DNA from: Lachnospiraceae bacterium
GTDB lineage: Bacteria; Bacillota; Clostridia; Lachnospirales; Lachnospiraceae
NCBI GenBank assembly: GCA_017540355.1
Contig: JAFYBE010000019.1
Coordinates: 1-35,152 of the forward strand
Reading direction: 5' to 3'
Length of the DNA: 35,152 bases
Positions 15,925 to 28,483 of this stretch are shown here, piece after piece. Each line of letters begins with the position of its first letter. Position 1 is the first letter of the stretch. The notes beneath the pieces were generated by a model that was not told the DNA's origin, did no database searches, and saw only the letters and a list, made by a program, of their open reading frames with translations. The translations under genes and the position numbers were made by a program.

Positions 15925-16698
15925 ATGGTAAAAGGCTTGTACACTGCCTACACTGGCATGATCAATGAGCAGAACAGGATGGATGTATTGACCAACAATC
16001 TGGCCAATTCAGACACTAACGGCTTTAAGAAGGAGGGAGCTACAAGTCAGGCCTTTGACTCTCTTCTTGCGTTAAAGATAAAAGACAGATCTGAGAATCC
16101 CAATCTCGCTCATCCCATCGGTATAGCCAATCTCGGCGTTAAGGTGGGAGAGAATTACACCGACTATTCTCAGGGAGCTTTCAAGGTGACTGACAGGACA
16201 TATGATGTTGCTCTTTCAGGTGAAGGCTTCTTCAATATCGAATATACCAACAAAGCAGGCGAAACAAGCACAATGTATACCAGAGACGGTGCCTTTGTGG
16301 TTAATACACAGGGCTATCTGGTTAATAAAGACGGCGATTATGTCCTCGGACAGAACGGTCGTATACGTCTTGACCCCACCAAAGATGTAGCCATAGATAC
16401 ACAGGGCAATATCTCGCAGGACGGGGCAAGGGTAGCGCAGATAAAGCTTACGGATTTTGAAGATTACAATTATATTGAGCATTTCGGTGAGAACTATTAT
16501 CGGCCTGTTGAAGGAGCAACTGAGAAAGCGGCTACTGCCACAACCAATCAGGGCTTTATAGAGACATCAAACGTTCAGGTTGTCCAGGAGATGGTTGAGA
16601 TGATCTCAGTATCCAGACAGTATGAGAGTAATCAGAGATTAATTACGACGATAGACGGAACGTTGCAGATAGTATCCAACCAGCTTGGTAAGGTATAA
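15925..16698 (+). CDS. flhO: Flagellar basal-body rod protein (FlgF/FlhO-like)
   Basis: A 257-residue axial protein of the flagellar rod, exported by the flagellar type III system. The N-terminal 'GLYTAYTGMINEQNRMDVLT' with 'NNLANSDTNGFKKE' is the flagella basal body rod motif, and the C-terminal 'GFIETSNVQVVQEMVEMISV' followed by 'SRQYESNQR' is the matching coiled half. The central D1 domain includes 'VALSGEGFFNIE'. An AGGAG ribosome site precedes the ATG, 19 bases after mbl. It is followed within 15 bases by a FlgG-like gene. The FlgF versus FlhO naming depends on convention; gene order favours the B. subtilis mbl-flhO-flhP layout. Confidence 0.88.
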   Translation: MVKGLYTAYTGMINEQNRMDVLTNNLANSDTNGFKKEGATSQAFDSLLALKIKDRSENPNLAHPIGIANLGVKVGENYTDYSQGAFKVTDRTYDVALSGEGFFNIEYTNKAGETSTMYTRDGAFVVNTQGYLVNKDGDYVLGQNGRIRLDPTKDVAIDTQGNISQDGARVAQIKLTDFEDYNYIEHFGENYYRPVEGATEKAATATTNQGFIETSNVQVVQEMVEMISVSRQYESNQRLITTIDGTLQIVSNQLGKV

Positions 16699-16713
16699 AG
16701 GAGGTTATGACAT

Positions 16714-17535
16714 ATGGTAAGATCGCTTTGGTCGGCAGCCACAGGCATGATAGCACAGCAGACAAATCTTGACACGATTGCCAACAATCTGGCTAATGTC
16801 AATTCTACCGGATATAAGACGGAAGTAGCGGAGTTTAAGTCACTTCTGTACCAGACCATGCAGACTGAGACTACAACAGCCAACGGCGCCAACAAGCCGA
16901 TAAGCGCACAGGTAGGTCTCGGTGTACGAAACTCTTCAATTACTACGGTGTTTAAGCAGGGTTCGCTTCTTGCATCGGAATCCGATACGGCTTTTGCAAT
17001 AGAGGGAAAGGGCCTCTTTGCCGTAAGAGCCGAGGACGGAACGACCAAGTATACACGTAACGGTGATTTCAGATTCAGTGTCGGACAGGGAAGCAATATA
17101 GTATTATGTACGTCGGGAGGCCTTCCGGTGCTTGACAGCAAGGGTCAGCCCATCAACATTGATACGAACAGATATATCGCCAATAAGATAACGGTAGACG
17201 CCAACGGTAATCTCTGCTATCCCGATGCGACCAATAATCCACAGCCTATCGGTGTTGCCATTGGACTGTTCCAGTTTAACAATCCTTCCGGATTATATAA
17301 AACAAGCGACACCCTGTATGTTCCTACAGCCGCAAGCGGCAACGCCATGAATGAGGCGACCAATAACAACCTTGAGAAGAGTGTTATCAGGCAGGGTTAC
17401 TTGGAAGGCTCCGGCGTACAGGTTGTTGATGAGATGGTCAACATGATCGTTGCACAGAGAGCATACGAGATGAACAGTAAGGCGATCACCACATCGGATC
17501 AGATGATGGAACTTGCCAATAACCTTAAGAGATAA
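16714..17535 (+). CDS. flhP: Flagellar basal-body rod protein (FlgG/FlhP-like)
   Basis: A 273-residue distal-rod-type protein. 'SLWSAATGMIAQQTNLDTIA' with 'NNLANVNSTGYK' at the N-terminus and 'YLEGSGVQVVDEMVNMIVAQ' with 'RAYEMNSKAITTSDQMM' at the C-terminus are strong FlgG signatures. The central domain carries 'FAIEGKGLFAVRAEDG'. AGGAGG lies upstream. It is the second gene of the rod pair after mbl and is followed by a FlgJ-like gene, so a compact rod-assembly cluster is implied. It may be called flgG, as its sequence is closest to FlgG of the hook-basal body. Confidence 0.9.
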   Translation: MVRSLWSAATGMIAQQTNLDTIANNLANVNSTGYKTEVAEFKSLLYQTMQTETTTANGANKPISAQVGLGVRNSSITTVFKQGSLLASESDTAFAIEGKGLFAVRAEDGTTKYTRNGDFRFSVGQGSNIVLCTSGGLPVLDSKGQPINIDTNRYIANKITVDANGNLCYPDATNNPQPIGVAIGLFQFNNPSGLYKTSDTLYVPTAASGNAMNEATNNNLEKSVIRQGYLEGSGVQVVDEMVNMIVAQRAYEMNSKAITTSDQMMELANNLKR

Positions 17536-17554
17536 TCCTTAGAAGGAGGCGCAT

Positions 17555-17956
17555 ATGAGCACTATAGATACAAGTAATATAATGTCCATGTATTCGCAGT
17601 ATGCGACAGAGACCGCCAAGGATTCTCAGGCAGCGAAGCTTAAGAATACCGTGAACGCAGATTATTCCAAAGCTACCGATGATGAGCTTATGGATGTCTG
17701 TAAGCAGTTTGAATCATACTTTTTGGAGCAGGTATTCAAGCAGATGGCCAAAACTGTCAACATCACGGAGAACAGCGACAGATCAACATCCAATCTTGTT
17801 GATTTCTTTAAGGATAATACCATTCAGGAACTGGCTACAATGTCTACCGAGACTAACAGTCTGGGACTTGCGCAGATGCTTTATGAGCAGATGAAGCGTA
17901 ATATCGGTGACACGGATATTCCCGTTAAGGATACCGCACAGGAAGATAAGCAGTAG
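17555..17956 (+). CDS. flgJ: Rod-binding protein (FlgJ N-terminal type)
   Basis: A 133-residue protein consisting of the FlgJ rod-binding domain only: 'DELMDVCKQFESYFLEQVFKQMAKTV' around residues 44-69, then the 'LVDFFKDNTIQELATMSTET' region and 'GLAQMLYEQMKRNI' near residues 105-118. This domain acts as a chaperone or cap for rod assembly in the periplasm or wall. The C-terminal peptidoglycan-hydrolase domain of proteobacterial FlgJ is missing, which is the common state in Firmicutes. AAGGAGG precedes the ATG, 19 bases after the FlgG-like gene, so the three genes form an operon. No terminator is seen before recD2. Confidence 0.85.
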   Translation: MSTIDTSNIMSMYSQYATETAKDSQAAKLKNTVNADYSKATDDELMDVCKQFESYFLEQVFKQMAKTVNITENSDRSTSNLVDFFKDNTIQELATMSTETNSLGLAQMLYEQMKRNIGDTDIPVKDTAQEDKQ

Positions 17957-17994: not shown

Positions 17995-20241
17995 ATGGAG
18001 ACATTTGAAGGCTACATAGACCATTTTTTATATTATAACGACAGCAATGGTTACGGAGTTTTTGAACTCGATACGGAAGATGACGACATCATCTGTACGG
18101 GTAGTTTTCCGGGTCTTACACAGGGGGAGACCGTTGAAGTTTCCGGCGAGTGGGTTGAGCATCCCACTTACGGTCCGCAGCTTAAAGTAAAGCAGTGGAA
18201 GGTGACTGAACCTTCAGACCTTATGGATGTGGAGAGGTATCTGGCCTCAGGAGCCATCAAGGGAGTCGGACCTACAATAGCCAAGAGAATCATCAAGAAG
18301 TTCGGGAAAGAGTCGCTTGATATCATCGAGAAACAGCCCGAGCGTCTGACCGAGATAAAAGGTATAAGCGAAAGAATAGCTCAGAGTATCGCAACACAGG
18401 TAACTGAGCGAAGGGGCCTTCGTGATGCCATAATGATGCTTGGCAAGTACGGAATCAGCAATAATCTGGCGCTCAAACTCTATGAGGTATACGGTACCTC
18501 TATCGAAAAGATTCTTATTGAAAATCCATACAGACTTGCAGAAGAGATAGACGGCATCGGATTTAAGAAAGCCGATGAGATTGCGTCCAAAACAGGGATA
18601 TCCGTGGACTCGCATTTCAGAATAGAGAGCGGTATCATTTATGTTCTTAACGGCGCATCCGTAGACGGACATACCTACTTGCCGAAAGATGAGCTTTTAA
18701 GTAGGGCTTATGAACTGTTGGGAGTTCCCGCAAGCATAATAGAAGAGAGATTGCCTGATATGGCCATTGAAAAAAGAATTATGCTTAAAAGAGTCGGGGA
18801 TGAGGAAAATGCAGAGGCTGTTCACGTTTATCCCGCATACATGTACTATGAGGAACTTGGTTGTGCCCGTCTTCTTCATGAGCTTAATGATACTCCGGAT
18901 TATAACGACTCATCCGACAATATATCGTCAAGGATAAAAAAGATAGAGGCTGAACTTAACATAGAGCTGGATGATCTTCAAAGGCAGGCCGTACACAAGG
19001 CGGCAAAAAGCGGAGTGTTCATACTTACCGGAGGACCCGGAACAGGTAAGACTACAACGATTAATTCGATTATCAAGCTGTTTTTGTCGGAGGGGCTTGA
19101 TATTATGCTTGCGGCGCCTACGGGCAGAGCTGCCAAGAGAATGACCGAAGCAACGGGATATGAGGCTAAGACCATTCACAGGATGCTTGAACTCAGCGGA
19201 TCGTCTGAAGACAGCGGAAGAAGAGGGGCATCTTTCGGACGTAACGAAGACAATCCTCTTGAAGCGGATGCAGTGATAATAGATGAAGCATCAATGGTGG
19301 ATATTCACCTTTTATATGCTTTGCTTAAGGCGTTAAGTCCGGGAACTAAACTGATATTTGTCGGAGATGACAATCAGCTTCCGAGCGTCGGGCCGGGGCA
19401 GGTTTTGCATGACATGCTTAAGTCAGGCTGTTATGAGAGTGTGGAACTTGAAAGGATATTCAGACAGTCCGAACAAAGCGATATAGTGGTCAATGCGCAT
19501 AAGATCAACAGAGGAGAGGATATCTCGCTCGACAATAAGAGTAAAGATTTCTTCTTCCTTGAAAGAGAAGATACGGGCGTGATATACAAGCACATGATTC
19601 AGCTCATATTGGAGAAACTGCCGTCCTACGTTGATGCAACTCCTGTGCAGATACAGGTTTTGACACCCACAAGGATAGGCTCGCTGGGAGTGGAAGCGCT
19701 TAATAAGGTACTGCAGAAGTACCTTAATCCGCCGGATGATACGAAGCCGGAATATGTATTCGGGGAGAATATTTTAAGACTCGGTGATAAGGTGATGCAG
19801 GTTAAAAACAACTATAATCTTACATGGGAGATTATGAGTAAATACGGCATAGCAGCCGATTCGGGAACGGGAGTATTCAACGGTGACATTGGTGTCATAA
19901 CTGACATCAGTAAGACAATGCAGACACTTACCGTTGAGTTTGATGACAAAAGACAGGTGGTATACCCGTTCTCGGGGCTGGATGAATTGGAACTGGCTTA
20001 TGCCGTGACGATACACAAGTCACAGGGAAGCGAGTATCCTGCGGTCATTATGCCTCTGCTCGGAGGTCCGAGGATGCTGCTTAACAGAAATCTGCTGTAT
20101 ACCGGAGTGACCAGGGCAAAAAGATGTGTGACTATACTGGGGAGTCGTAGCACACTGAATACCATGATTCACAATGTAAGTGAAAAAAACAGATATACGG
20201 GATTAGCCGCGCGCATAAGGGAAACAGAAGGAGGACAATGA
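17995..20241 (+). CDS. recD2: RecD2-type superfamily 1 DNA helicase
   Basis: A 748-residue 5'-3' helicase of the RecD/TraA family found in bacteria without RecBC. N-terminal residues 1-90 form an OB-like domain ('VFELDTEDDDIICTGSFPGL'). Residues 90-220 carry helix-hairpin-helix motifs ('IKGISERIAQSI', 'IDGIGFKKADEIA'). Residues 320-740 are the helicase core: Walker A 'GGPGTGKTTT' near 343-352, motif II 'VIIDEASMVD', motif IV-VI including 'VTIHKSQGSEYPAVI' and 'LLYTGVTRAK'. The ATG at 17995 is the only one that fits the family start, yet there is no ribosome-binding sequence before it. It ends in a 4-base overlap (ATGA) with comFC. Length is normal for RecD2. Confidence 0.93.
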   Translation: METFEGYIDHFLYYNDSNGYGVFELDTEDDDIICTGSFPGLTQGETVEVSGEWVEHPTYGPQLKVKQWKVTEPSDLMDVERYLASGAIKGVGPTIAKRIIKKFGKESLDIIEKQPERLTEIKGISERIAQSIATQVTERRGLRDAIMMLGKYGISNNLALKLYEVYGTSIEKILIENPYRLAEEIDGIGFKKADEIASKTGISVDSHFRIESGIIYVLNGASVDGHTYLPKDELLSRAYELLGVPASIIEERLPDMAIEKRIMLKRVGDEENAEAVHVYPAYMYYEELGCARLLHELNDTPDYNDSSDNISSRIKKIEAELNIELDDLQRQAVHKAAKSGVFILTGGPGTGKTTTINSIIKLFLSEGLDIMLAAPTGRAAKRMTEATGYEAKTIHRMLELSGSSEDSGRRGASFGRNEDNPLEADAVIIDEASMVDIHLLYALLKALSPGTKLIFVGDDNQLPSVGPGQVLHDMLKSGCYESVELERIFRQSEQSDIVVNAHKINRGEDISLDNKSKDFFFLEREDTGVIYKHMIQLILEKLPSYVDATPVQIQVLTPTRIGSLGVEALNKVLQKYLNPPDDTKPEYVFGENILRLGDKVMQVKNNYNLTWEIMSKYGIAADSGTGVFNGDIGVITDISKTMQTLTVEFDDKRQVVYPFSGLDELELAYAVTIHKSQGSEYPAVIMPLLGGPRMLLNRNLLYTGVTRAKRCVTILGSRSTLNTMIHNVSEKNRYTGLAARIRETEGGQ

Positions 20242-20942
20242 ATGTACGCAGGCTTATGAGTTTTTTGTATCCGGACAGGTGTGCGGTATGTGATGAAGTG
20301 GTTGAAAGCGGCAACATGCTTTGCAAAGAGTGTTCGCAAAAAATTCGACCGTTACACGGAGACACGTGTCACAGATGCGGCAAGCTTTTGACGGATACGG
20401 ACAGATTGTATTGTTATGACTGCAGCAGAAAGATTCATTTCTACGAGAGAGGATTTGCGATATTTGAGTATTCGGATATCAAAAAAAGTCTTTACAGATT
20501 TAAGTACTCGGGAAGGGCGGAATATGCGGCATTTTATGCCTTTGCCGCAGACAGGGTTTATGGGAAAACATTAAAAGAACTTAACCTTGATGCAATTGTT
20601 CCCATACCGATACACAAAAGAAGATTGGCCGTACGAGGATACAATCAGGCGGAAGAATTTGCAAAGGAACTGTCAAAGCGCATAAATACGCCTGTTATGA
20701 GCAATCTGATAAGAAGATGCAAATCAACGGTTCCGCTTAAGAAATTGAGTGAGGAAGAACGCAAGAATAATCTAAAAAATGCTTTTATAATTGCGGCAAA
20801 TGATGTAAAATTAAAGAAAATTCTGTTAGTTGATGACATTTATACAACGGGCGCAACTATAGACACCGTTTCGGCACTGTTTAAAGAACATGGAGCGGAG
20901 CAGATTTACTTCATCACGGTTGCAATCGGAGCGGGTATGTAG
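20238..20942 (+). CDS. comFC: ComF-family phosphoribosyltransferase-like protein
   Basis: A 234-residue protein of the ComFC/ComF family, needed for DNA uptake in competent species and probably acting on incoming single-stranded DNA; it occurs also in species not known to be competent. The N-terminal 65 residues hold cysteine pairs ('CAVC', 'CKEC', 'CHRC', 'CYDC'), a zinc-binding module. The C-terminal phosphoribosyltransferase fold contains 'VPIPIHKRRLAVRGYNQAEE' and the PRPP-binding 'LLVDDIYTTGATIDT'. It overlaps recD2 by 4 bases, so it is translationally coupled. The neighbour downstream is a YvyF-like protein, as in Bacillus. Confidence 0.9.
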   Translation: MNVRRLMSFLYPDRCAVCDEVVESGNMLCKECSQKIRPLHGDTCHRCGKLLTDTDRLYCYDCSRKIHFYERGFAIFEYSDIKKSLYRFKYSGRAEYAAFYAFAADRVYGKTLKELNLDAIVPIPIHKRRLAVRGYNQAEEFAKELSKRINTPVMSNLIRRCKSTVPLKKLSEEERKNNLKNAFIIAANDVKLKKILLVDDIYTTGATIDTVSALFKEHGAEQIYFITVAIGAGM

Positions 20943-20959
20943 AACAAGGAGGAATCAAC

Positions 20960-21370
20960 ATGAATGTACGTAATTGCAGAAGATGCAGAAAGTTATTTAA
21001 CTATATAGCCGGACCCATGGTTTGCCCTGCGTGCAGAGACGCAATGGAAGAAGAATTCCAGAAGGTTAAGAAGTTTGTGCAGGAGCATGCACACTGCGAT
21101 ATAAGAACCGTTTCTGAGGAATGTGAAGTTGATCCCAACCAGATAAGGCAGTGGGTACGTGAAGAGAGACTAGAGTTTGCTGATGACGCGGCTGTAGGAC
21201 TTAACTGTGAGCGTTGCGGAAGAAGCATAAAGTCCGGACGTTACTGTGAAGCATGTAAGAGAGATATGGCCAATACCTTTAACAGTGCCATAAGAACTAA
21301 TGCACCGGCCCCCGAACCTGCCAAGAAGAATATTAAAGAGAATCCTAAGATGAGGTTCTTGGATTCGTAA
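20960..21370 (+). CDS. YvyF-like flagellar-operon protein with two cysteine-rich modules
   Basis: A 136-residue protein. The N-terminal zinc-ribbon-like module is 'NCRRCRKLFN...VCPACRDAM'. A central helical section ('FQKVKKFVQEH', then 'TVSEECEVDPNQIRQWVREE') resembles a small helix-turn-helix. A second module is 'NCERCGRSIKSGRYCEAC'. This arrangement matches the YvyF family (named flagellar operon protein), whose B. subtilis gene sits between comFC and flgM. The position directly after comFC supports the call. FlgM, FlgN and FlgK genes, which follow in Bacillus, are absent here. AAGGAGG stands before the ATG. Function is unclear; regulation of flagellar genes has been suggested for the family. 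Confidence 0.75.
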   Translation: MNVRNCRRCRKLFNYIAGPMVCPACRDAMEEEFQKVKKFVQEHAHCDIRTVSEECEVDPNQIRQWVREERLEFADDAAVGLNCERCGRSIKSGRYCEACKRDMANTFNSAIRTNAPAPEPAKKNIKENPKMRFLDS

Positions 21371-21380
21371 GGAGTAGAAT

Positions 21381-21758
21381 ATGATCAATGAGGATAAGGT
21401 CATTCTGATGACCAAGCTTGCCTCATATGAGCAGAGAGAGGGCAAAAGATTTAACGCCGTTGCGGGATATTTCAGGACCGATTATATAAGCTCGCAGCTT
21501 ATGCGTTCTTTCATTGCCGGAACACTTGCTTTTTTAGCAATTATAGGTGTGTTCCTGTTTTACAATTTCGAAGTAATAATGGAGGATATATATAATACCG
21601 ATCTGCTGTCCTTTGGCAAGAAGGTGGCCTATATATACCTGATATGTATGGGTGTATATCTGTTGTTTTCGTATATCCTGGCGATATACAGATACAATAA
21701 AGCCAGAGGAAGTATCAGAAGCTATTATGCTAATCTGAAGAAGCTGGAGAAGTATTGA
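21381..21758 (+). CDS. Small membrane protein of unknown function
   Basis: I do not recognise this 125-residue protein. An N-terminal polar part of about 42 residues is followed by two transmembrane segments at about 43-64 ('SFIAGTLAFLAIIGVFLFYN') and 82-104 ('VAYIYLICMGVYLLFSYILA'), then a basic, probably helical tail ('YYANLKKLEKY'). Both termini are most likely cytoplasmic. AAGGAG precedes the ATG, 10 bases after the YvyF-like gene, and a larger membrane protein follows after 9 bases. The pair stands directly in front of cdaA-cdaR-glmM, suggesting they are cotranscribed. Confidence 0.7.
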   Translation: MINEDKVILMTKLASYEQREGKRFNAVAGYFRTDYISSQLMRSFIAGTLAFLAIIGVFLFYNFEVIMEDIYNTDLLSFGKKVAYIYLICMGVYLLFSYILAIYRYNKARGSIRSYYANLKKLEKY

Positions 21759-21767
21759 TAATTTATT

Positions 21768-22820
21768 ATGTCGAATTTTATACTTACCAGGGAATTGATA
21801 AAGAGAATTTATTCTAAGCATGAAGCATATATCAATCCCATACTTAAATTCATACTCGCATTAGTCTTGCTTTCGGTTATTAACAGTCGCATAGGCTATA
21901 TGGAGAGATTGGACAGCGCAGTCATTGTACTTGTGGCAGCGCTGCTTTGTTCTTTTCTTCCCATGCAGGTTATGGCGATAATTGCGGGACTGTTTATGCT
22001 GTTGCACATGTACGCGCTGGCGCCGGAATGTGCCATTGTTGTGGGTGTCCTGTTCTTCCTGATGTTCATCCTCTATGTAAGACTCGTTCCCAAGGAGACG
22101 ATAGTTGTTTTAATAACACCTATCCTGTTTATGCTGAAGATTCCTTACGTTATGCCGATTGCGATGGGTCTTTTGGGAGTTCCGGCATCGGTTGTTACGG
22201 TTTCATTCGGAATAGTGATAGCATATTTCCTGACATATATTCAGAATAATGCGTCATCGCTTTCTTCTTACGAAGACGCAGGCATGATATCAAGAATCAG
22301 ACTTGTTGTAGACGGATTGTTAGGCAACAAGGCAATGTTTGCAACAATTGTTGTATTCGCGATTGTTCTGATTCTGGTGTATGTCATCAGACGTCGCCAG
22401 ATAGATTATGCGTGGACGATAGCGGTAATCACCGGCGGAGTTGCGGAGCTGGTGCTTCTGTTTATCACCGAACTCACGGTGGGACTTGATTTCTCGATTA
22501 TAGGCATGATGTTCGGCTGTATACTTTCCGTACTAATCGGATTGTTCCTTCAGTTGTTTGCTTTCCATGTTGATTATAAGAGAACCGAGAATGTCCAGTT
22601 TGAAGATGATGAATACTACTACTACGTTAAGGCGGTTCCCAAGGTTACGGTTGCGGCATCTGAGAAGAAAGTAAAAAGAGTTCAGCCGAGTCAGTCCAAG
22701 CAGGCTCAGCATAAGAGCAGACCTGCCGGAGCGGGCAGTGCCTCATCCAAAGCGTCATCTGCGGAAAGAAGTGTAAGGACCTTACACACAGCTAACGGTA
22801 CATCCAGAACACTTAAATGA
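21768..22820 (+). CDS. Multi-pass membrane protein of unknown function with charged C-terminal tail
   Basis: I do not recognise this 350-residue protein. About 25 residues of polar N-terminus precede roughly eight hydrophobic segments between residues 27 and 265. A soluble tail of about 80 residues starts with a striking acidic and aromatic patch ('FEDDEYYYYVKAVPK', near 276-290) and continues as a basic, Ser/Ala/Gln-rich, probably disordered stretch. No transporter or enzyme motif is evident. The ATG at 21768 has only a weak ribosome site; translation may be coupled to the preceding gene, whose stop is 9 bases upstream. cdaA begins 20 bases downstream. The position suggests a link to c-di-AMP or envelope synthesis, but this is inference. 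Confidence 0.75.
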   Translation: MSNFILTRELIKRIYSKHEAYINPILKFILALVLLSVINSRIGYMERLDSAVIVLVAALLCSFLPMQVMAIIAGLFMLLHMYALAPECAIVVGVLFFLMFILYVRLVPKETIVVLITPILFMLKIPYVMPIAMGLLGVPASVVTVSFGIVIAYFLTYIQNNASSLSSYEDAGMISRIRLVVDGLLGNKAMFATIVVFAIVLILVYVIRRRQIDYAWTIAVITGGVAELVLLFITELTVGLDFSIIGMMFGCILSVLIGLFLQLFAFHVDYKRTENVQFEDDEYYYYVKAVPKVTVAASEKKVKRVQPSQSKQAQHKSRPAGAGSASSKASSAERSVRTLHTANGTSRTLK

Positions 22821-22840
22821 TTTTTTGAAGATATAGGGAT

Positions 22841-23716
22841 ATGGAACAGTTACGTACATTTGCGGAGAGATATCTGATCAATCTGCATATTCCGACAATT
22901 CAAATAACGGATATATTAGAGATTCTTATTATTTCATTCCTTTTGTATCACATTCTGGTATGGATTAAGAATACTAAAGCGTGGTCTCTCCTTAAGGGAG
23001 TGGCTCTTATTACTGTGTTCATTCTTTTGGCTGCATTGTTCGAGATGAATACAATAATCTGGATAGTTAAGAATGTATTCTCCATAGCTGTCATTGCGAT
23101 AATAATTGTTTTGCAGCCCGAGTTAAGAAAGGCATTGGAAGAACTCGGACGTAAGAACATATTCGCGTCCATATTCGATATGAGTAAGACCGAGACGGGT
23201 CTGTTTTCCGATTCTACAATCAAAGAGATCACAAAGGCCTGCATGGAGATGGGCAAGGTGAGGACAGGTGCTCTTATCGTGGTAAGGCAGATGGACAACC
23301 TGACGGAATATGAGCAGACAGGTATTGCGGTTGATGCAATAGTTACCAATCAGCTTTTGATTAATATTTTTGAACACAACACTCCGTTACATGACGGAGC
23401 TGTCATAATAGACGGAGACAGAATAACTTCGGCAACATGCTATCTGCCTTTGTCCGACAATATGCGTTTAAGCAAAGAGTTGGGTACAAGACACAGAGCC
23501 GGAGTCGGTATCTCGGAAGTAACTGATTCGATGACAGTCATCGTTTCGGAAGAGACGGGATCCATAAGTGTTGCATATAAGGGCGAGTTGTACAGAAACC
23601 TCGGCGCCGAAGAGCTTGAGATAAGACTTGAGAGCATACAGAATAAGCAGGCGGAAGAGAAGAAACGCGCCATATGGAAGGGAAAGGGGGCCAGGAATGA
23701 AGCAAAAACTAACTGA
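22841..23716 (+). CDS. cdaA: Diadenylate cyclase CdaA
   Basis: A 291-residue membrane enzyme that condenses two ATP molecules to cyclic di-AMP, a second messenger controlling potassium and osmolyte uptake and cell-wall balance. Three transmembrane segments occupy about residues 25-95. The DAC (DisA_N) domain follows, with the catalytic 'DGA' at residues 185-187 and the 'RHR' motif at residues 217-219 in 'GTRHRAGVG'. The gene order cdaA-cdaR-glmM is conserved in Firmicutes. The start at 22841 fits the family; the ribosome site is weak (AGGGA). The 3' end overlaps cdaR by 20 bases, indicating coupling. Confidence 0.95.
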   Translation: MEQLRTFAERYLINLHIPTIQITDILEILIISFLLYHILVWIKNTKAWSLLKGVALITVFILLAALFEMNTIIWIVKNVFSIAVIAIIIVLQPELRKALEELGRKNIFASIFDMSKTETGLFSDSTIKEITKACMEMGKVRTGALIVVRQMDNLTEYEQTGIAVDAIVTNQLLINIFEHNTPLHDGAVIIDGDRITSATCYLPLSDNMRLSKELGTRHRAGVGISEVTDSMTVIVSEETGSISVAYKGELYRNLGAEELEIRLESIQNKQAEEKKRAIWKGKGARNEAKTN

Positions 23717-24968
23717 CAATCTGGGTCTCAAGATCCTGGCGGTTGTCTTTTCCGTAATCTTATGGCTGATTGCGATTAACATCAATGATCCTGTTACACA
23801 GGAGAGTTATAACGTTAACGTTCAGCTGCAGAATCTGAACAGCCTGACATCTTCCGGTAAGTATGTCGAGGTTATGAACAATACGGACAGTATCCGTGTG
23901 ACAGTACGCGGAAGCAGAACGGTATTGTCGTCATTTACGGAGAAGAACATCGTAGCTACGGCTGATGTATCCAAGATTAATTCCAATAACCAGGTTCCGA
24001 TAGAAGTGACGACTACCAGGATAAGCGACAGAATAGAAAGCATACGTACAGACAGACAGTATGTACAGTTAAGCATCGAGAATGTCGGCAAGCAGCAGAT
24101 TCCCATTAATGTCAAGGTTCAGAATGAACCCGGAGAAGGATACATATTCGGTTCTGCCACGACCACACAGAACGTGGTTATTATCTCCGGTCCAGAGTCA
24201 AAGGTTTCGGAAGTTGCTTATGCAGCTGTTGAGATTAATGTGGACGGAGCTACTAGCGATGTTAATATATCTCTGCCGATACATCTGTATAACGCATCGG
24301 ATGAGATTGTGGACAATTCAAAGATCACGATGAGCATGAACGAAGTATATACTACGGCTTCGGTATTGCAGACCAAGGATCTTCCTGTTGTATGCAATGT
24401 AACAGGCATACTGCCTGACGGGTATGCGCTTACGGGTCAGGTGGATTGCAATCCCGCATACATCACGCTTGCCGGACGAAGCAGCGTTATGAAGAGTCTG
24501 TCATCCATCGATATAACCGACGCAATAGATGTCACGGGATATGATTCGGATGTTAAGACTTCAGTCGATATCAAGCCGTATATTCCGGAGGGAACATCCA
24601 TAGTGGGTGGCGATGATGCTTCCAAGATAGATGTTACGGTCTATATAGAGAAGGAGATTACCAAGGAATTCCGTATAGATACAGATAGAATACATACAAC
24701 AGGTGTACCTGAGGGAATGGCAATAGAACTGGATGAAGAAGAAAGTTCGATAAAGATTGAACTTCAGGGACTCAGAAATATACTCGGTACGACAGATTCA
24801 AGCACAATAGTCGGTATCGTGGATGTGGATAAGTATATGAATGATGAAGAACTCACTTCACTCAGTACAGGTACACATACAATGCCTGTTACATTCACTC
24901 TTCCCGACGGAGTTAAGCTTACCAGAGAATGTAGGGTAAGAGTAAAGGTTAAGAGTACAGAACAGTAA
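23697..24968 (+). CDS. cdaR: YbbR-domain regulator of CdaA
   Basis: A 423-residue protein anchored by one N-terminal transmembrane segment (residues 10-28, 'LKILAVVFSVILWLIA'), with the remainder outside the membrane as a series of about four YbbR repeats of roughly 80 residues each. Each repeat begins with a pattern like 'PV...V...G..P.GY', e.g. 'LPVVCNVTGILPDGYALTGQ'. In other Firmicutes it binds CdaA and alters c-di-AMP synthesis. The ATG at 23697, inside the end of cdaA, is chosen over 23628 because GGGGG and AGG lie just upstream and the family starts a few residues before the membrane segment. It precedes glmM by 22 bases. This is a different protein from the PucR/CdaR regulator at 3667. 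Confidence 0.92.
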   Translation: MKQKLTDNLGLKILAVVFSVILWLIAININDPVTQESYNVNVQLQNLNSLTSSGKYVEVMNNTDSIRVTVRGSRTVLSSFTEKNIVATADVSKINSNNQVPIEVTTTRISDRIESIRTDRQYVQLSIENVGKQQIPINVKVQNEPGEGYIFGSATTTQNVVIISGPESKVSEVAYAAVEINVDGATSDVNISLPIHLYNASDEIVDNSKITMSMNEVYTTASVLQTKDLPVVCNVTGILPDGYALTGQVDCNPAYITLAGRSSVMKSLSSIDITDAIDVTGYDSDVKTSVDIKPYIPEGTSIVGGDDASKIDVTVYIEKEITKEFRIDTDRIHTTGVPEGMAIELDEEESSIKIELQGLRNILGTTDSSTIVGIVDVDKYMNDEELTSLSTGTHTMPVTFTLPDGVKLTRECRVRVKVKSTEQ

Positions 24969-24990
24969 TACCCAAGGAGGATTATAATAA

Positions 24991-26340
24991 ATGGCAAGGC
25001 TTTTCGGCACGGACGGAGTAAGAGGAGTAGTAGGTGAAGAACTGACTATAGATCTTGCTATGAAATTGGGACAGGCCGGTGCACATGTCCTTACTAAAGA
25101 GAACGACCACAAGCCAACAATTATGGTAGGTTGTGATACAAGAATATCGGGAGACATGCTCGCGAACGCGCTTATGGCAGGTGTTTGCAGCGTTGGAGCT
25201 AATGCGGTATATGTCGGAGTGATGCCCACACCGGCGGTTGCATACCTTACCAAGAAGTATAAAGTTGATGCGGGAGTTGTTATTTCGGCATCACACAATC
25301 CCGTCGAGTTTAACGGTATTAAATTCTTTGACGGTAACGGATACAAGCTTTCGGATGAACTTGAAGATGAGATAGAAGCTTTGATAAAGAGCAATATGAA
25401 AGATATTCCTTTCCCTACAGGAGCACAGGTCGGTAAGATAAAGTACAGGACCGATGCAAGGGAAGAATATATCAATCATTCAATTAAGGCTGTTCCGATA
25501 GATCTTACGGGATATAAGGTAGTTGTGGACTGTGCGGAAGGAGCAAGCTTTTATACTTCCGTTGAGGCACTTAAGGAACTCGGAGCAACGGTAATACCGA
25601 TTCATAATATGCCTGACGGTACCAATATCAATGCCAATTGCGGTTCCACACACATGGAGGAGTTAAAGGCAAGAGTGGTATATGAGAAAGCCAATATCGG
25701 ACTTGCTTTTGACGGAGACGCGGACAGACTGTTGGCCGTAGATGAACTTGGCGATATAGTTGACGGTGACCAGATAATGGCTATTGTCGGCAATCATATG
25801 AAGTCACAGGGTAAGCTTAAGGGCGACACCATAGTTGTGACTGTCATGAGTAACTTAGGCTTCACCCTCATGGCTAAGGAACAGGGAATCAACATAGAGC
25901 AGACTAAGGTCGGTGACAGATATGTTCTTGAGCGCATGAGAGAGATAGATGCATCACTTGGCGGAGAGCAGTCGGGTCACGTGATATTCCTGGATGAGAA
26001 TACTACGGGAGACGGATTGTTAAGTGCTTTACATCTGCTGCAGGTGCTTGTTGAGACGGGTAAGCCTCTATCGGAATTGTCTAAGATTATGACGGTTTTA
26101 CCTCAGGCTCTTGTTAATGCCAAGGTGCCCAACCATAAGAAAGACAGTTACATGGATTATCCCGAGATTGCGGATGCCATTGCCGCTCTTGAAGAGAAGT
26201 TTAAGGGAGAAGGAAGAGTTTTAATACGTCCTTCCGGAACAGAGCCCAAGGTAAGAGTCATGATAGAGGGCAAAGACCAGGCACAGATTACGGAGGATGC
26301 GAAGGCACTCGCAGAGCTTATTCAGAACACGATTCTGTAA
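24991..26340 (+). CDS. glmM: Phosphoglucosamine mutase
   Basis: A 449-residue cytoplasmic enzyme converting glucosamine-6-phosphate to glucosamine-1-phosphate, the step before UDP-GlcNAc for peptidoglycan. The active phosphoserine is S101 in 'ISASHNP'. The metal-binding loop 'FDGDADRL' is near residues 239-246, the sugar-binding 'GGEQSGH' near 325-331, and the phosphate-binding '[11 protein letters not shown]' near 412-422. An AAGGAGG ribosome site precedes it. GlmM is known to interact with CdaA, and the three genes form one operon here. There is no strong terminator after it; a weak CAATAAT/ATTATTG repeat follows near 26362-26388. Confidence 0.96.
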
Positions 26341-26386
26341 CGGTTTACGCCTGAAAGCTTACAATAATTCATATAAAAGGTATTAT

Positions 26387-26416
26387 TGGACAGAAAAGGC
26401 CGAATCGTGGTAAAAT
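26387..26416 (+). promoter_or_regulatory. Promoter of the HPr gene
   Basis: TGGACA (26387-26392), an 18-base spacer and TAAAAT (26411-26416), with TGG directly before the -10, an extended -10 feature. It lies 50 bases before the HPr ATG. Confidence 0.55.
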
Positions 26417-26465
26417 ATTAGACGACAATAACGACTATAAAGGTCGATAAGGAGGATATACAGGT

Positions 26466-26729
26466 ATGGTTAGTCAGAAAGTAGTGATTAAGAATCCGAC
26501 CGGACTACATCTAAGACCTGCCGGCATCCTATGTAAGGAGGCTATGCAGTTTAAATCATTAATTACATTCTCATTCAAAGAGACAACAGCCAATGCTAAG
26601 AGTGTGCTAAGCGTACTGGGTGCTTGTGTTAAGTGTGGAGATGAGATTGAGATAGTATGCGACGGCGAAGACGAGGCTGATGCCCTTAAGGCATTGGTTA
26701 CTGCAATAGACAATGGTCTTGGTGAATAG
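26466..26729 (+). CDS. ptsH: Phosphocarrier protein HPr
   Basis: An 87-residue phosphotransferase carrier. The catalytic H15 is in 'GLHLRPAG' and the regulatory S46 in 'AKSVLSVLGA', so both PTS phosphotransfer from enzyme I and regulation by HPr kinase are possible; the histidine argues against a Crh-like paralogue. The length is standard. It contains four cysteines (C23, C54, C57 and C65), more than is usual. AAGGAGG precedes the ATG and it has its own promoter. A strong terminator follows, so it is mainly transcribed alone, although the enzyme I gene is not adjacent. Its place between glmM and leuA does not indicate a specific function. Confidence 0.92.
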   Translation: MVSQKVVIKNPTGLHLRPAGILCKEAMQFKSLITFSFKETTANAKSVLSVLGACVKCGDEIEIVCDGEDEADALKALVTAIDNGLGE

Positions 26730-26736
26730 CTGACAG

Positions 26737-26783
26737 ACCCATCTGCTTATGGCTTGTACGCCCGCAGATGGGTTTATTTTTTT
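26737..26783 (+). terminator. Rho-independent terminator after HPr
   Basis: ACCCATCTGC (26737-26746) pairs perfectly with GCAGATGGGT (26764-26773), loop 17 bases, followed by a T-run broken by one A to 26783. Confidence 0.85.
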
Positions 26784-26809
26784 GACGGTTTATTTAGGAG
26801 GATTTTAAG

Positions 26810-28483
26810 ATGCTTAACTATAAAAGATATGAGAAAGTTCCTGTTCTGGACTTTCCGGAGAGAACATGGCCCAATAAGGAGATAACCAAAGCACCTGTAT
26901 GGTGTAGTGTGGACTTAAGAGACGGTAATCAGGCTTTAATAGATCCCATGCAGGTAGATGAGAAGATAGAGTTTTTTAACTATCTTGTAAAGCTTGGCTT
27001 TAAGGAGATTGAGATAGGTTTCCCTTCTGCAAGCCAGATAGAATTTGATTTTTTAAGACAGCTTGTGGATCGCAAGCTCATTCCGGACGATGTTTGGGTA
27101 CAGGTACTCGTTCAGTGCAGAGAAGAGCTCGTTGAGAGAACATTTGAATCGATTGAAGGCATCAAGAATGTCATCGTACACATATATAATTCGACATCAA
27201 CTCTTCAGAGGGATGTGGTATTTAATAAGAGCCGTGAGGAGATTATAGATATAGCCGTTGAAGGTACCAGAATGGTTAAGAAGAGAGCGGCTGCTTTCCC
27301 GGGTAATATCAGACTTGAATATTCCCCTGAGAGTTTCACGGGTACGGAGATGGATTTTGCGTTGGAGATATGTACCGCTGTTCAGCGTGAGTGGGGAGCA
27401 ACCAAGGAGAATCCCATTATCATTAATCTTCCTTCCACTGTAGAGACCAATACTCCAAATGTATATGCGGACGAGATAGAGTGGATGTCAACACATTTTG
27501 AGAACAGGGACAGCATTATCTTAAGTGTTCATCCTCATAATGACAGAGGAACCGGTGTTGCAAGCTGTGAGCTTGCACTTATGGCGGGAGCTGAGCGTGT
27601 GGAAGGTACACTGTTCGGTAACGGCGAGAGAACAGGCAATCTGGATATAATGATTGTTGCTTACAATATGTTCTCACAGGGTGTTAATCCCGAACTTGAG
27701 ATTGAACATGTCAATGAGGCAATAGAGATATACGAAAGATGTTGTAAGTTACCTATTCATCCCAGACATCCTTATGCCGGTAAGCTTGTATTCACGGCAT
27801 TCTCGGGAAGTCATCAGGATGCCATCAACAAAGGTGTACAGGCTATGAAAGAGAGAGACAGCAAGATATGGAGAGTTCCTTATCTGCCGATCGATCCTGC
27901 GGACATAGGAAGAGAGTACGAACCTATCGTACGTATCAATTCGCAGTCCGGAAAAGGCGGCGTAGCCTTTATCATGGATACTTACTTCGGATACAAGCTT
28001 CCCAAGGCCATGCACAAAGAGTTTGCCGGTGTTATCCAGGCAATGTCAGAGAAGCAGGGAGAGGTATCGCCTGAAGAGATCAATGCCAAGTTCAGAGAAG
28101 AATACATTGAGCGCAAAGAGCCTCTTCACTTTAAGAAGCTTAAGGTTGACGATTTGAGTGAAGAAGAAGAGACAAGCTTCGATACTCATGTAAGTGTTAC
28201 ATACACGGATCACGGCGAAGAGAAAGTTATGGAAGGTGTCGGCAACGGACCTATCGATGCCGTTAAGCGTGCAATTGCAGAGAACCTTAATCTTGATATC
28301 AAGATTCTTGACTACTCAGAGCATGCACTTCAGGCCGGATCGAATTCCAAAGCTGCGGCTTACATACATCTGCTTGATGTGAATACGGGTAATGTTACTT
28401 ATGGCGTGGGCGAGAGCAGCAATATTACCAGAGCTTCGGTAAGAGCAATATTTTCGGCTATTAACAGATTGGGTTTGGTATAA
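26810..28483 (+). CDS. leuA: 2-isopropylmalate synthase (LeuA2-type)
   Basis: A 557-residue cytoplasmic enzyme condensing acetyl-CoA with 2-oxoisovalerate, the first step of leucine synthesis. The N-terminal catalytic barrel has the divalent-metal and substrate motifs 'CSVDLRDGNQALIDPM' near residue 31-46 and 'HPHNDRGTG' near 244-252. The opening 'MLNYKRYEKVPVLDFPERTW' and the length belong to the LeuA2 form (also known from actinobacteria) rather than the shorter E. coli type. The C-terminal 110 residues form the leucine-feedback domain ('VGNGPIDAVKRAIAE'). AGGAGG precedes the ATG. No T-box or leader peptide is visible in the 80 bases before it, and it lies just after the HPr terminator, so its promoter is uncertain. 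A phosphofructokinase gene follows after 26 bases. Confidence 0.93.
   Translation: MLNYKRYEKVPVLDFPERTWPNKEITKAPVWCSVDLRDGNQALIDPMQVDEKIEFFNYLVKLGFKEIEIGFPSASQIEFDFLRQLVDRKLIPDDVWVQVLVQCREELVERTFESIEGIKNVIVHIYNSTSTLQRDVVFNKSREEIIDIAVEGTRMVKKRAAAFPGNIRLEYSPESFTGTEMDFALEICTAVQREWGATKENPIIINLPSTVETNTPNVYADEIEWMSTHFENRDSIILSVHPHNDRGTGVASCELALMAGAERVEGTLFGNGERTGNLDIMIVAYNMFSQGVNPELEIEHVNEAIEIYERCCKLPIHPRHPYAGKLVFTAFSGSHQDAINKGVQAMKERDSKIWRVPYLPIDPADIGREYEPIVRINSQSGKGGVAFIMDTYFGYKLPKAMHKEFAGVIQAMSEKQGEVSPEEINAKFREEYIERKEPLHFKKLKVDDLSEEEETSFDTHVSVTYTDHGEEKVMEGVGNGPIDAVKRAIAENLNLDIKILDYSEHALQAGSNSKAAAYIHLLDVNTGNVTYGVGESSNITRASVRAIFSAINRLGLV

Follow-up and report, generated by a model that had tools for sequence, protein, structure and literature searches.

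Genes X and Y in front of cdaA in Lachnospirales: a conserved pair encoding a candidate membrane accessory of the c-di-AMP synthase CdaA-CdaR

The regulation of CdaA, the membrane diadenylate cyclase that makes cyclic di-adenosine monophosphate (c-di-AMP), is incompletely understood in cells; according to PMC13289029, its known operon-encoded partners are CdaR and GlmM, and in Streptococcus mutans DacA is bound by a membrane calcium ATPase, with an effect on c-di-AMP. These cases provide a precedent for further proteins acting as partners of CdaA. Here, two genes of unassigned function, X and Y (together, XY), were analysed in a stretch of 35,152 nucleotides from a Lachnospiraceae bacterium (contig JAFYBE010000019.1 of assembly GCA_017540355.1; hereafter, the window), where they directly precede cdaA. 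A first-pass annotation of the window had proposed that this pair could sense the envelope or osmotic state and act on CdaA or, alternatively, be a transporter controlled by c-di-AMP. The genomic context described below suggests, tentatively, that X and Y form an accessory membrane module, lost repeatedly in Lachnospirales, that acts together with the c-di-AMP synthase CdaA-CdaR.

Both open reading frames (ORFs) were found packed against the c-di-AMP operon, as first described, and on its strand (forward). X (21381-21758), recognised as an ORF with homologues, encodes 125 amino acids (aa) with two membrane segments. Y (21768-22820), recognised as an ORF with homologues and alignments, encodes 350 aa with around 8-10 membrane segments. 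The cdaA gene (22841-23716, forward) was identified by TIGR00159 (231.7 bits, cut-off 188.8), PF02457 and PF19293. X begins 10 base pairs (bp) after a yvyF-like gene, and the spacings are 9 bp between X and Y and 20 bp between Y and cdaA. In the window's own genome and 40 relatives, Y homologues were detected in 35 of the 41 and X in 34 by single-sequence search, and the sole Y-bearing genome missed in the latter (G028) has X by profile. As homologues recur across relatives, with full-length alignments reaching down to ~21-22% identity, X and Y are real, conserved genes and not orphans.

The position of the pair was followed in 230 loci, kept from 263 with a Y match when X and Y were both present, the Y match had E <1e-30 and the Y sequence was distinct; the 33 dropped were duplicates, a locus truncated by the end of its contig (L123) and a weak partial match (L168). 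X and Y lay on one strand in 230/230 loci, both being required for entry, with a median gap of 14 bp. A same-strand cdaA followed Y in 222 of the 230, at 300 bp or less in 208, at 500 bp or less in 218 and at 0.8-1.6 kilobases (kb) in four. Thus, the synteny with cdaA across Lachnospiraceae, whose lack had been named as a reason to abandon the proposal, holds far beyond one genome.

Among the eight loci without cdaA in the stretch examined, six belong to family f90, one to genome G030 and one to G235. In f90 (L245, L246, L252-L255, L258), Met_synt_B12 and MetH genes of the same direction stand between Y and cdaA (checked with Pfam in L245), and in 7/7 genomes with a listed place for Y, out of eight searched, cdaA was found 3.3-4.3 kb further along, on the contig and strand of Y. 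In G030 (L064, L241), XY and cdaA are on separate contigs with other genes after Y; its congener G244 keeps the adjacency, and the separation may be a real rearrangement or an assembly fault. In G235, a gene that by eye is recombinase-like lies past Y, and cdaA is on a different contig. Adjacency was the rule in two further sets of loci. In a set of 80 named loci, cdaA was the query-set gene that came next in 80/80, X preceded Y in 79, the last one starting at a contig edge, and a YvyF-like gene was present in 77. In family f17, outside the 230 loci, Y stands before cdaA in 11/12 XY-bearing genomes, and in the twelfth (G419) cdaA lies at the end of its contig.

Hydropathy averaged over the 230 homologues gave two membrane segments for X (~45-62 and 81-103) and ~8-10 for Y, in agreement with the 2 and about 8 counted before. 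The N-terminus and the C-terminal tail of Y would be cytoplasmic, because basic residues are located at R105, at 208-210 and after K292. The most conserved part of Y is a putative juxtamembrane cytoplasmic segment, DYKRTENVQFEDDEYYYYVKAVPK (residues 269-292; 22572-22643, forward), which starts directly after the last membrane segment; it corresponds to the acidic and aromatic patch already picked out in the window, whose conservation is now seen to be order-wide. Positions at least 85% identical over the 230 rows were 12/24 within this segment vs. 17/276 elsewhere (Fisher p 8e-8, for segment limits set post hoc, after viewing the alignment). Identity reaches at least 98% at Y270, D280, Y285, V287, P291 and K292 and, outside the segment, at G148 and G223; P130, G134 and R105 are also among the conserved residues there. 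A pattern for the segment matched 225/230 Y proteins, and one of the five missed (L333) is a variant of it by eye.

Past this segment, the tail of Y (22644-22817, forward) is variable, basic and of low complexity. It probably faces the cytoplasm, as first proposed, and its length ranges from 5 to 325 aa among the 225 loci with the pattern. In the window it ends (22773-22817) in a peptide T-A-N-G-x-x-R-T, found mostly after R/K-T-(V/L)-(H/R) and behind a variable linker. Peptides of this type occur in 19/230 loci, all from the window's genus set, and resemble a short docking motif; no second copy that could hint at the partner was found in the window's own genome, an incomplete assembly with a single copy. 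Low-complexity Y tails of 205-325 aa with the common ending TGW...TI..FF(D/E)GLD were seen in three loci of family f8 (L331, L336, L337). No internal repeat was detected in Y with hhalign.

The small protein X would have its N- and C-terminal parts in the cytoplasm, as predicted from its sequence, and M10, A14, Y16, D34, Y35, Y105, Y115 and L122 are its conserved residues over the 230 loci. PHROGs and PADLOC were searched with the X and Y of the window only, NCBIfam also with the Y alignment and Pfam also with 29 Y and 27 X homologues, and profiles were run against PDB sequences. No convincing family was obtained for Y and none above cut-off for X, so that the pair remains unassigned, as it had been in the first-pass annotation. 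In PHROGs, X matched phrog_944 at only E 0.009. DUF996, the commonest of scattered sub-threshold matches of X (8/27 homologues, best E 0.0007), was rejected, these being taken as generic membrane-helix matches.

A protein with the number of membrane segments of Y and with its conserved proline and glycines (P130, G134, G148, G223) could, with X, be an ion or osmolyte channel or transporter that is a target of c-di-AMP and not a regulator of its synthesis, in which case the cluster would match the supply of the signal to its target; c-di-AMP does control K+ and osmolyte transporters, according to PMC6108528 and PMC10284832. However, searches of Pfam, NCBIfam and PDB sequences found no domain of known transporters or c-di-AMP receptors, and the strongest constraint on Y falls outside the membrane. 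Furthermore, no charged Y residue with at least 85% conservation is placed centrally in a hydrophobic segment (E19, K27 and R105 lie at segment edges), so a coupled transporter gains no support. We regard the transporter as an unlikely explanation.

With respect to the other neighbours, the ORFs upstream of X in 221 loci formed 47 clusters: comF in 106 loci (holding the window and most loci of the window's family), DUF4015 in 49, a tRNA synthetase in 12 and recD2 in 5, the remaining clusters being pairs or singletons, some of them possibly spurious ORFs. The assignment was checked in L245 for DUF4015 (with Pfam) and in L329 for the synthetase. The DUF4015 gene (putative glycosyl hydrolase, e.g. 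L245:151-660) is a second recurrent neighbour, possibly with a role in common with XY. On the other side, glmM was present within ~7.5 kb in 10/20 loci, preselected for cdaA next to Y and with no f90 genome, so that their 20/20 for cdaA is by choice. With cdaA following in 222/230 loci overall, XY is tied more closely to cdaA than to glmM or to any other neighbour counted.

These neighbours bear on a second alternative, in which XY would serve envelope or cell-wall assembly and be clustered with cdaA-cdaR-glmM through a common link to wall synthesis, with no contact with CdaA. The presence of glmM in the window's cluster and of a glycosyl-hydrolase-type DUF4015 gene upstream in 49/221 loci would fit such a role, but glmM is near in just 10/20 loci and comF replaces DUF4015 in the very cluster that holds the window, which makes this alternative improbable too. 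Quite improbable is that the arrangement is only ancestral gene order, XY having stood before cdaA since the ancestor of the order without moving and with no functional tie: a single locus of largely vertical descent and the persistence of XY in f90 and G030, where cdaA no longer adjoins, would agree with it, yet Y and cdaA have stayed within 500 bp in 218/230 loci despite repeated exchange of the upstream gene and frequent absence of glmM downstream.

Regarding its distribution, Y was detected by profile in 199/295 genomes sampled from the window's order, about two-thirds, and in 146/212 of those of good quality. A scan of genome contigs gave at least 588 Y-encoding stretches, the best 80 of which were mostly from Lachnospiraceae, including Butyrivibrio, Acetatifactor, Roseburia and Parablautia, with one metagenome bin titled Bacillus sp.; on these grounds, the order was taken to be Lachnospirales. 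In a sample of the phylum, Y was found in 5/398 genomes, every one of the window's family and its own genome included. In a sample of the class, 8/196 genomes matched: six in full length, all of them from the window's family and counting its own genome, and two only partially (L167, L168). The latter were judged to be chance, their loci having no XY-like protein or cdaA nearby. A profile of Y residues 269-292 over the same 196 genomes produced outside the window's family one match with E <0.001, in a 73-residue frame without XY context. At E <=1, the motif matched in 46 class genomes besides six of the window's family; three loci read from these (L421-L423) had neither an XY-like protein nor cdaA in the stretch and were discarded. 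Finally, no relative of X or Y was found in up to 1.5 kb upstream of 30 cdaA loci from other orders (one with ~0.3 kb only). By these searches, Y has no credible match beyond Lachnospirales.

In a check of 20 order members, drawn from the 96 that gave no Y match, X was found in 0/20 and cdaA in 20/20, the cdaA match of G277 being a fragment under cut-off; the absence of XY is unsure in G277 and G290, because cdaA sits there at a contig edge. In the 18 XY-lacking members with the upstream side available, unrelated genes precede cdaA. In three loci of family f13 without XY (L222, L223, L227), a large gene lies directly before cdaA, which in L223 codes for an AMIN/Amidase_3 cell-wall amidase.

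An accessory complex with CdaA-CdaR fits these data better than a free transporter, because a polytopic Y is combined with a small regular partner, a juxtamembrane cytoplasmic constraint and a near-constant place before a membrane-tethered cyclase. The pair itself, its conservation and co-occurrence, its place before cdaA and the position of the constraint are observed, and the topology, the formation of a complex, its contact with CdaA, the direction of regulation and the signal are inferred. The 269-292 segment of Y, cytoplasmic and next to the last membrane helix, would contact the membrane-tethered cyclase or the CdaR/CdaA complex; X, with its cytoplasmic ends, would be the regular partner of Y; and together they would tune c-di-AMP production to a stimulus perceived at the membrane. 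From the original interpretation, the unassigned pair, the synteny with cdaA and the conserved patch stand, and a role at CdaA is plausible from genomic context, with the odds somewhat short of even. A bolder version, in which XY would be a novel class of c-di-AMP synthase controller, i.e. a Lachnospirales-specific two-protein membrane sensor whose juxtamembrane FEDDEYYYYVKAVPK segment docks on CdaA-CdaR and sets the output according to the state of the membrane or envelope, appears rather doubtful.

Several observations weigh against a working link between XY and CdaA. CdaA does not need XY, because lineages exist that keep cdaA without the pair, and mapping XY onto a tree of 92 CdaA sequences requires at least seven changes, at least four of them forced by well-supported branches; early acquisition followed by repeated losses is the preferred reading of this history, and the pair would then be accessory and not essential. 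The pair does not adjoin cdaA in f90, G030 and G235. In addition, G355 (family f8, 77% complete) has a Y match with E 5e-12 and no cdaA match, probably due to incompleteness of the genome; it was the only case seen of Y without cdaA. Mean-field coupling on 222 X-Y-CdaA triples (effective 162, too few to decide) revealed no excess of inter-protein pairs, with observed vs. expected numbers among the top 50 of 17 vs. 21.3 for X-Y, 10 vs. 23.5 for X-CdaA and 15 vs. 25.0 for Y-CdaA.

The last point of this kind concerns CdaA itself. The likeness of its membrane region to outgroups was 0.356 in the window's family (98 rows, assigned by locus number), 0.413 in other families (97), 0.377 in a mixed group (26) and 0.455 in XY-lacking members (18), whereas that of the diadenylate cyclase (DAC) domain was 0.55-0.56 in all groups. 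The membrane region was less outgroup-like in the other XY-bearing families than in the XY-lacking members (Mann-Whitney p 1.6e-6). Within family f17, however, the values for XY-bearing (mean 0.476, 11 genomes) and XY-lacking (mean 0.498, three genomes) members overlap; the divergence was therefore read as phylogeny, and an XY-linked change of the CdaA membrane domain was rejected on this within-family comparison. As a separate observation, CdaA residue 27, in a membrane helix, is D in 18/18 XY-lacking members and 30/30 outgroup sequences, and E in 99/99 rows assigned by locus number to the window's family and 48/123 of the other XY-bearing members; D27 is present in 14/14 f17 genomes, XY-bearing and XY-lacking.

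In the window, the pair belongs to the one-strand run recD2-comF-yvyF-X-Y-cdaA-cdaR-glmM. The YvyF-like protein is encoded at 20960-21370 (forward; TIGR03826 103.7 bits, under the cut-off of 124.15). The cdaR gene (23697-24968, forward) has YbbR repeats (PF07949, three stretches); its start at 23697 is our choice, the listed ORF beginning with TTG at 23628. The glmM gene is located at 24991-26340 (forward; TIGR01455 572.8 bits, cut-off 447.55). The window's recD2, HPr and glmM were named via NCBIfam, and the ComF and YvyF models matched under cut-off. Sense terminator-like sites within 19800-27000 were four inside Y and one intergenic, after HPr at 26760; as this sole intergenic site falls after HPr, a single transcript across the run from recD2 to glmM is likely, and XY would share an operon with cdaA. 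Promoter-like sites (20 vs. 16.2 in shuffles) were not enriched and were therefore given no weight, and no RNA families were detected in the window at gathering scores. Flagellar rod-type genes (15925-17956) lie upstream, as does the YvyF-like gene; flagellar and c-di-AMP genes are therefore neighbours in the window's family.

As far as the literature searched shows, the XY pair is undescribed: no paper among those listed dealt with the genes before cdaA in Lachnospiraceae, in a search that covered few subscription papers. XY constitutes a concrete, testable candidate regulator in prominent gut bacteria, carried by about two-thirds of the sampled genomes of the order, and its repeated natural loss offers ready-made comparisons.

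Regarding known systems, sigW-rsiW, which lies directly upstream of cdaA in Bacillus subtilis with one of the two coding for a membrane protein, resembles XY as two genes before cdaA, but no sigma-70 or anti-sigma domain was found in X or Y (Pfam, NCBIfam). Transporters controlled by c-di-AMP include Ktr/Trk, KUP/KimA and OpuC, and neither X nor Y has a transporter or RCK/CBS/USP domain by Pfam, NCBIfam or PDB sequences. LrgAB and CidAB are two-gene membrane operons with LrgA and LrgB domains, and no match to these was found for XY in Pfam (window proteins at E 1; 29 Y and 27 X homologues at 0.1; for X, the first 25 of 29 families). LytTR regulatory systems, as presented in PMC6193735, are like XY in being two-gene modules with a membrane protein that restrains its partner, but no LytTR domain was found in XY and X is itself a membrane protein. 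SMU_723, the DacA-binding P-type calcium ATPase of Streptococcus mutans (PMC13289029), is also a membrane protein that would modulate the cyclase, as proposed for XY, but searches of Pfam and NCBIfam gave no ATPase domain for either X or Y. Regarding CdaR (YbbR) and GlmM, X and Y have no YbbR or phosphoglucosamine mutase domain (Pfam, NCBIfam), and they differ in being upstream of cdaA and in having been found in one order only; like CdaR and GlmM, they are encoded in the cdaA gene cluster, on the same strand, as candidate modulators at the membrane-bound cyclase.
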